Positions 14,998 to 15,337 of a DNA stretch of 64,000 nucleotides are shown in pieces. How positions within the stretch are numbered: the first letter of the stretch is position 1; each line of letters begins with the position of its first letter. The notes below the pieces were generated by a model. It was not told the origin of the DNA. It saw nothing but the letters and a program-made list of their open reading frames with translations, and did no database searches. Source of the stretch: Sulfurovum sp. Lineage in GTDB: Bacteria; Campylobacterota; Campylobacteria; Campylobacterales; Sulfurovaceae. A program made the translations under genes and the position numbers. The DNA is taken from contig JAMOTA010000013.1 in the NCBI GenBank assembly GCA_027068435.1, positions 1-64,000 on the forward strand, given 5' to 3'.

Positions 14998-15003
14998 TAT
15001 AAT
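14998..15003 (+). promoter_or_regulatory. Candidate -10 box (TATAAT) upstream of small ORF
   Basis: GCTATAAT read directly; same motif precedes several other transcription units in this window. Confidence 0.5.
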
Positions 15004-15069
15004 CTTTTGTACCCTTTTTAGGTAATGGGGTAGTGTTCTTCTTTTCTTTTGAGTGGGTGGGCTTGAAGT

Positions 15070-15075
15070 TATAAT
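15070..15075 (+). promoter_or_regulatory. Second candidate -10 box (TATAAT) upstream of small ORF
   Basis: GTTATAATGC read directly. Confidence 0.4.
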
Positions 15076-15119
15076 GCTTTTTAGCATAGGCAGGGTTATC
15101 TCAGTTGAAAGGGTACATT

Positions 15120-15233
15120 ATGGAAATTTATTTTTCAGTACTAACTTTGATTCTTGGAGTAGCTAAAGTTACAATTATGTGGTTAAGTTATAAAGAGAGT
15201 AAAAGGTCAAAGAACACCGATAACGATAAGTAA
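15120..15233 (+). CDS. Unannotated 37-aa single-TM small protein, candidate type I toxin-like peptide
   Basis: MEIYFSVLTLILGVAKVTIMWLSYKESKRSKNTDNDK: hydrophobic N-terminal helix and charged C-tail. Below the length cutoff of the supplied ORF track; flanked by complementary sequences. Confidence 0.5.
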   Translation: MEIYFSVLTLILGVAKVTIMWLSYKESKRSKNTDNDK

Positions 15234-15243
15234 TCGCATTGAT

Positions 15244-15268
15244 CTCGAAGAAATGGAACTTCTTCGAG
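15244..15268 (+). other. Stem-loop CTCGAAGAA-ATGGAAC-TTCTTCGAG
   Basis: Perfect 9-bp inverted repeat just downstream of the small ORF. Confidence 0.7.
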
Positions 15269-15337
15269 TATCGATGTACCCTTTCCCTCATTGTACACAA
15301 TAAACTTTAAATACAAATAAAATCTATAGAAGTAAGT

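Follow-up and report, generated by a model that had tools for sequence, protein, structure and literature searches.

On the strength of its sequence, the segment from 14998 to ~15325 of the window, by which we mean the whole 64,000-nucleotide stretch of Sulfurovum sp. DNA analysed here, is one copy of a dispersed, previously undescribed module of Sulfurovum-type vent bacteria. A short open reading frame (ORF) with a structured leader and a 3′ hairpin lies between two promoter motifs that face each other, and the mRNA 5′ end is predicted at ~15008–15009, at a GTACCC motif. The individual elements are the following:

14998–15003, plus strand: TATAAT, putative −10 box of the toxin mRNA; conserved, with GTACCC 5–7 nt later in almost every copy whose 5′ end is intact
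15009–15018, plus strand: element A, GTACCCTTTT, predicted mRNA 5′ end and 5′ hairpin partner of 15028–15032; conserved, with a mean A:B pairing of 0.63 in 3′-truncated folds
15027–15040, plus strand: element B, GGGGTAGTGTTCTT, predicted switch strand; from RNAalifold on 15 full-length copies and a mean B:D pairing of 0.51 in 31 copies
15040–15113, plus strand: predicted leader hairpin over the Shine-Dalgarno (SD) sequence, arms 15040–15053 and 15100–15113; from SD-unpaired values and arms swapped jointly between leader subtypes
15107–15118, plus strand: element C, the SD region GAAAGGGTACAT; from compensatory pairs of its GUAC with the ORF
15120–15233, plus strand: ORF of 37 aa, ATG at 15120 and stop TAA at 15231–15233, encoding a probable toxin; from 41 intact homologues, pN/pS, the family profile and hydropathy
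15210–15217, plus strand: AAGAACAC within the ORF (codons K-N-T), 3′ half of a predicted long-distance interaction; from consensus pairing with 15033–15040
15237–15273, plus strand: 3′ hairpin, hypervariable in stem and loop; from covariation, and differing between paralogues of one genome
15274–15285, plus strand: element D, ATGTACCCTTTC, 3′ partner of element B and predicted antisense start region; core nearly invariant in 48–50 copies
15290–15325, minus strand: predicted antisense promoter, −10 TACAAT (complement of 15290–15295) with a conserved A/T-rich upstream region; GTAnAAT in most of 50 copies

The elements named by the first-pass annotation are all present, namely TATAAT at 14998–15003, GTACCCTTT at 15009–15017, GAAAGGGTACAT at 15107–15118, the 37-codon ORF, a 9-bp hairpin at 15244–15268 and ATGTACCCTTTC at 15274–15285, and the hairpin extends into a longer, slightly interrupted stem (15237–15273). 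The perfect 12-nt complementarity it had pointed out between 15107–15118 and 15274–15285 is likewise borne out, and the fold of 15005–15300 is unusually stable (z = −4.0). Taken alone, the 12-nt match is weak evidence, because perfect pairs of at least 12 nt recur in 173 of 2000 dinucleotide shuffles of 14998–15290 (~9%); at the sequence level, what is decisive for the reality of the observation is conservation in ~50 other copies rather than the match.

Distribution and coding constraint

A DNA search returned strong matches in many of the 78 genomes of the genus, several per genome, and searching the fetched loci iteratively with a profile yielded 63 matches. The peptide profile finds homologues in 26 of 176 family genomes, covering 4 of 11 genera, and gives short, noise-level matches only in the 398 genomes from the rest of the class; a covariance model of the module’s 3′ part locates 58 places in 27 of the 176 family genomes, with up to 5 per genome, and none outside the family in a search of the rest of the class. 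Most of the named carriers are metagenome assemblies of Sulfurovum and Nitratifractor, and one is a contig binned as Sulfurospirillum; many of the source genomes are fragmented metagenome assemblies. Neither the Rfam gathering score nor a relaxed limit of E ≤ 1 gives a match to the module, and the phage, plasmid and viral-contig collections hold none, so that nothing points to carriage by a phage or plasmid. Neighbouring genes are unlike between most pairs of copies, a common neighbourhood being restricted to a minority, and a clean empty site was not found: the J-domain gene upstream has orthologues in other genomes, where the gene order differs.

The existence of 58 dispersed loci with mostly different flanks would also suit a repetitive, MITE-like mobile element with an ORF and hairpins that promote its own spread. 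Coding and structural constraint already disfavour this reading, which we hold to be highly improbable: the copies are strongly diverged, many of them below 80% DNA identity, and still keep the reading frame and the RNA pairing, and neither terminal inverted repeats nor target duplications were noticed, without a systematic search for them. Several copies are decayed, three by a 25-bp insert that leads to a stop after codon 7 and others by deletion or truncation. The second copy in the window genome (contig C13, 138881–139048; L038:881–1048) is 5′-truncated and lacks promoter, SD and start; it retains the ORF end, the 3′ hairpin in another sequence and the predicted antisense promoter, and is possibly an orphan antidote remnant. 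As a separate observation, a short dispersed repeat around GGAAATGCCCTTGGGGT has inserted into several of the toxin copies, three of which have their ORF broken by it, its sites lying within the ORF in L047, L060 and L065, in the leader in L066 and upstream in L060; two to seven exact copies of this repeat occur in five of seven genomes searched, with none in the window genome.

The 41 intact peptides, 32–48 aa in length, share the pattern MExxISVLALxxSxVKVTxMWLNYRxCKKxKNTDxD and consist of a single hydrophobic helix followed by a charged tail; their mean net charge is +1.8 and their mean best 19-residue hydropathy 2.16. In this they agree with type I toxins in general, which are small hydrophobic peptides, mostly shorter than 60 aa and with one membrane helix. 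Purifying selection on the peptide is indicated by a pN/pS of ~0.40 for moderately diverged pairs, a rough figure given that the ORF region is constrained by RNA pairing too. Searches of Pfam, NCBIfam and the PDB returned no match to the peptide, and hence no toxin family among them; judged by its sequence, the 37-aa product is probably a toxin.

Predicted masking of the Shine-Dalgarno sequence

The SD sits in the 3′ arm of the leader hairpin whichever of the three leader subtypes a copy belongs to, and also in odd copies, L043 and L137 among them, and the 5′ arm differs to match (CTTTTGTTCTA/TAGAACAAAGG, CTTATGTTTACT/AGTAAACATGAG and CTTTTTCGTTA/TAACGAAGAAGG by subtype). Folding of 37 copies gives the SD a mean probability of 0.08 of being unpaired, versus 0.42 with shuffled leaders, and masking is predicted to start once the start codon has been transcribed, independently of the 3′ element. 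Furthermore, the GUAC directly after the SD’s GGG pairs with a GUAC in the ORF (15138–15141, codons 6–7), where compensatory variants are found on both sides (GUGC/GCAC in L041, L076 and L136; GUAU/AUAC in L045 and L137), some of which change the encoded amino acid from V to A or I. By prediction, and with covarying arms, the primary transcript would have the masked ribosome site that characterizes type I systems. In AapA3 of Helicobacter pylori, upstream and in-ORF anti-SD hairpins form during transcription and are followed by a 5′–3′ interaction, in a system that includes an antisense RNA and 3′ truncation of the mRNA; the leader and in-ORF pairing described here resembles these two transient anti-SD hairpins (PMC6733600).

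A consensus fold (RNAalifold, 15 full-length copies) closes the molecule through GGGUA:UACCC, which joins 15028–15032 with 15277–15281, and through a second helix, GUGUUCUU:AAGAACAC, which joins 15033–15040 with 15210–15217, in a folding method that cannot represent pseudoknots. In the single-copy ensembles of 31 copies, 15274–15285 pairs mainly with GGGGTA at 15027–15032 (mean 0.51, as against 0.14 with the SD), and upon removal of the 3′ element 15009–15018 is predicted to take 15027–15032 into a local 5′ hairpin (mean 0.63). One compensatory change, in L045, alters both sides of this 5′ hairpin and keeps the pair (GTATCC/GGATAG). Since the 3′ element is almost invariant, its partners are not directly testable by covariation, and the AapA-type 5′–3′ interaction in the full-length mRNA is seen here as a prediction only.

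The first-pass annotation had put a different pairing at the centre, with the ribosome-binding site (RBS) held by the 3′ anti-RBS at 15274–15285, and also by 15009–15017, in mutually exclusive pairs from which 3′ processing would release it. The perfect 12-nt match in the window speaks for this switch, as do the few copies in which the pair is favoured (L131, L050, L067 and L066) and the fact that, G-U pairs counted, the RBS AAAGGGTAC can still pair with the invariant 3′ element in almost every readable copy. Over the 31 full-length copies, however, its probability has a mean of 0.14 and a median of 0.01, and the pairing of 15009–15017 with the RBS is predicted in one copy only (L131); the leader masks the SD in nascent RNA regardless of the 3′ element, and RBS variants are compensated in the ORF rather than in the 3′ element. 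The start-region GUAC covaries with ORF codons 6–7 as its partner, whereas the 3′ element never varies. We consider this switch unlikely; as the main structure, we reject the RBS:3′-element pairing on the basis of the ensembles, the consensus fold, the compensation pattern and the nascent-RNA folds. The wider proposal of the same annotation, a type I toxin-like architecture in which a small membrane peptide is encoded by a translation-masked mRNA with alternative pairings, and of which AapA is the nearest analogue, is supported.

The hypervariable 3′ hairpin and a predicted antisense promoter

Across 48 copies, 97.2% of the stem cells of the 3′ hairpin are standard pairs, compared with 31–54% in slid controls, and double compensatory changes are present in 12 of 14 pairs (169 double-changed cells versus a shuffle mean of 54), a covariation that could serve either strand. 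Among the three paralogous copies of one genome (G129), the ORFs are 90–94% identical and the hairpins 27–64% identical, and none of the within-genome copy pairs compared has an identical stem-loop. We propose from these sequences that the hypervariable hairpin is a probable address for antisense recognition. A small hairpin also spans the stop codon at 15215–15245; it recurs at the corresponding position of other copies, in several sequence versions (TGCGAC AAGTA GTCGCA; TGAGA AA TCTCA; AGACTA AAGTC TAGTCT) with apparently compensatory changes.

No antisense RNA promoter had been identified in the first-pass annotation, but a conserved minus-strand promoter motif exists at 15290–15297. Directly 3′ of the invariant element, ATTnTAC, which reads GTAnAAT on the minus strand, recurs in most of 50 copies and places the minus-strand −10 ~57–62 nt 3′ of the stop codon; conserved A/T-rich positions adjoin it, and the information ends abruptly, reaching background ~38 nt past element D. 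The antisense RNA is predicted to start at ~15283–15286, near GGAAAGGGTACA, 6–7 nt downstream of the minus-strand −10, with a predicted 5′ end whose complement is found in the 3′ element as well as at the mRNA 5′ end (15009–15018). A consensus promoter/terminator scan was uninformative and gave a canonical terminator for neither strand’s RNA. What bears on the antisense overlap typical of type I systems is, at the sequence level, a conserved minus-strand promoter motif in ~50 copies.

The peptide’s purifying selection and its lack of a Pfam or NCBIfam toxin match would also fit a useful, non-toxic small membrane protein under translational control, with no antisense antidote and an incidental minus-strand motif. 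Such a protein is hard to reconcile with the conserved antisense −10 and its sharp boundary, the several decayed copies, the diversification of hairpins between paralogues and the masking of translation in multiple layers, and we regard it as quite unlikely. The reading we favour, with a probability of about 0.8, is that the window copy belongs to a new toxin-antitoxin-like family of type I, carried by the Sulfurovum/Nitratifractor family. Its basis in the sequence is a dispersed conserved family, coding constraint, covarying hairpins and two facing promoter motifs, from which we infer transcription, hairpin recognition, activation by processing and toxicity.

In the type I model that we propose, the promoter at 14998 would give rise to an mRNA of ~280 nt that begins at GUACCC and codes for the 37-aa membrane peptide. 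The nascent mRNA would be untranslatable, with the upstream leader arm on the SD and the start region on early codons; once the 3′ end has been made, the strand 15028–15040 would pair with the ORF end and with the UACCC of the 3′ element, closing the 5′–3′ interaction. From the opposite side, the conserved promoter would drive an antisense RNA from the 3′ element, complementary to the 3′ hairpin and to at least part of the ORF, and the hypervariable hairpin would serve as the address by which each antidote silences its own toxin. Were the antisense RNA to fail, processing of the mRNA would expose the SD and the peptide would damage the cell membrane. How the SD opens is the weakest step of this model: folds of RNA lacking the 3′ element still keep the SD masked, trimming of the 3′ end in the manner of AapA may therefore be insufficient to activate the mRNA, and 5′/leader processing or a tisB-like standby mechanism (PMC7708055) is possible.

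A candidate operator and the relation to known systems

Of 49 copies with a readable promoter, 26 carry ATGWCAATNTGNCATATTTTT or a close variant (e.g. L047, L063 and L121). The box is palindromic, ATGWCAATNTGACAT(ATTTTT), and stands at a fixed distance ahead of the toxin-module promoters: wherever GTACCC can be located, it ends 33–34 nt upstream of that motif. The same box precedes genes whose products match RuvA, RecA, DprA (DNA_processg_A) and ComM (ChlI) in Pfam, as well as genes read from their sequence as radA (zinc ribbon and ATPase), recQ (DEAD helicase) and recG (a fragment without a Pfam match), the boxed loci outside the toxin module being L217–L234; it further lies upstream of 27 of 27 genes for S24-peptidase proteins (loci L235–L264), and the one S24 protein scanned has a CI-type helix-turn-helix. 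Box patterns read backwards gave essentially no match. Separately, a Gp49/RelE-like toxin-type gene sits behind the same box in L219, so that the box regulon may include toxins of more than one type.

Epsilonproteobacteria including Campylobacter and Helicobacter have been reported without a LexA orthologue (PMC2390758). From the distribution of the box we infer an SOS-like regulon governed by an S24 CI/LexA-like repressor, which suggests that the boxed copies are damage-induced toxins. The window copy is without the box (10 of 20 positions, the background level), and damage control therefore applies to its relatives and not demonstrably to this copy. We put somewhat better than even odds on the broader proposal that, in Sulfurovum-family Campylobacterota, an SOS-like regulon with a self-regulated CI/LexA-like S24 repressor and the operator ATGWCAATNTGACAT drives recA, ruvA, radA, dprA and comM together with a family of new type I toxins, with a hypervariable hairpin as the address that keeps each antidote specific.

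Among known systems, AapA/IsoA of H. pylori (PMC6733600) belongs to the same bacterial class, has several chromosomal copies per genome and encodes a peptide of 30–40 aa with a membrane helix and a cationic tail; its SD is likewise covered initially through pairing with upstream and in-ORF segments and later through a long-distance 5′–3′ interaction, in structures supported by covariation. The predicted antisense promoter of the new module, however, lies 3′ of the ORF, whereas that of AapA/IsoA lies inside it (the IsoA3 −10 was mutated at mRNA nt 87 and 90, with the start codon at nt 52–54), and searches of family libraries, the PDB and, by profile, the rest of the class found no relationship between the peptides. 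Because of these two differences we do not file the module as AapA/IsoA. It further differs in a strong leader hairpin that would hold the SD even without the 3′ end, in its hypervariable 3′ hairpin and in its confinement to one family of the class.

The SD of Escherichia coli tisB (tisB/istR-1) is also masked in a structured leader (PMC7708055), and tisB is controlled by LexA (PMC8145889), much as about half of the module copies carry the operator common to recA and repair genes. Unlike in that system, the predicted antisense promoter here faces the toxin 3′ end and the window copy is without an SOS-type operator. IstR-1 is encoded apart from the 3′ end of the tisB toxin. The facing promoters and the antisense RNA overlapping the 3′ part of a toxin mRNA for a membrane peptide would be shared with yonT/SR6 of Bacillus (PMC5848175). 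Similar 3′-overlapping arrangements are found in txpA/RatA and bsrG/SR4, also from Bacillus. All of these belong to another phylum, and we know of no 5′–3′ interaction with a shared GUACCC element among them.

With this module, a class for which the literature we found describes AapA/IsoA only gains a further type I toxin-antitoxin-like family, one whose ~50 natural variants make the RNA structure testable by covariation. Its combination of an AapA-like mRNA logic with a different antisense arrangement bears on whether 5′–3′ masking is ancestral or convergent, and since hairpins change fast among the near-identical toxins that one genome carries, the avoidance of cross-talk among paralogous antidotes becomes directly testable. 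Finally, the operator that recA has in common with competence genes is suggestive of a damage response in relatives of Campylobacter and Helicobacter, which are reported to be without LexA (PMC2390758).
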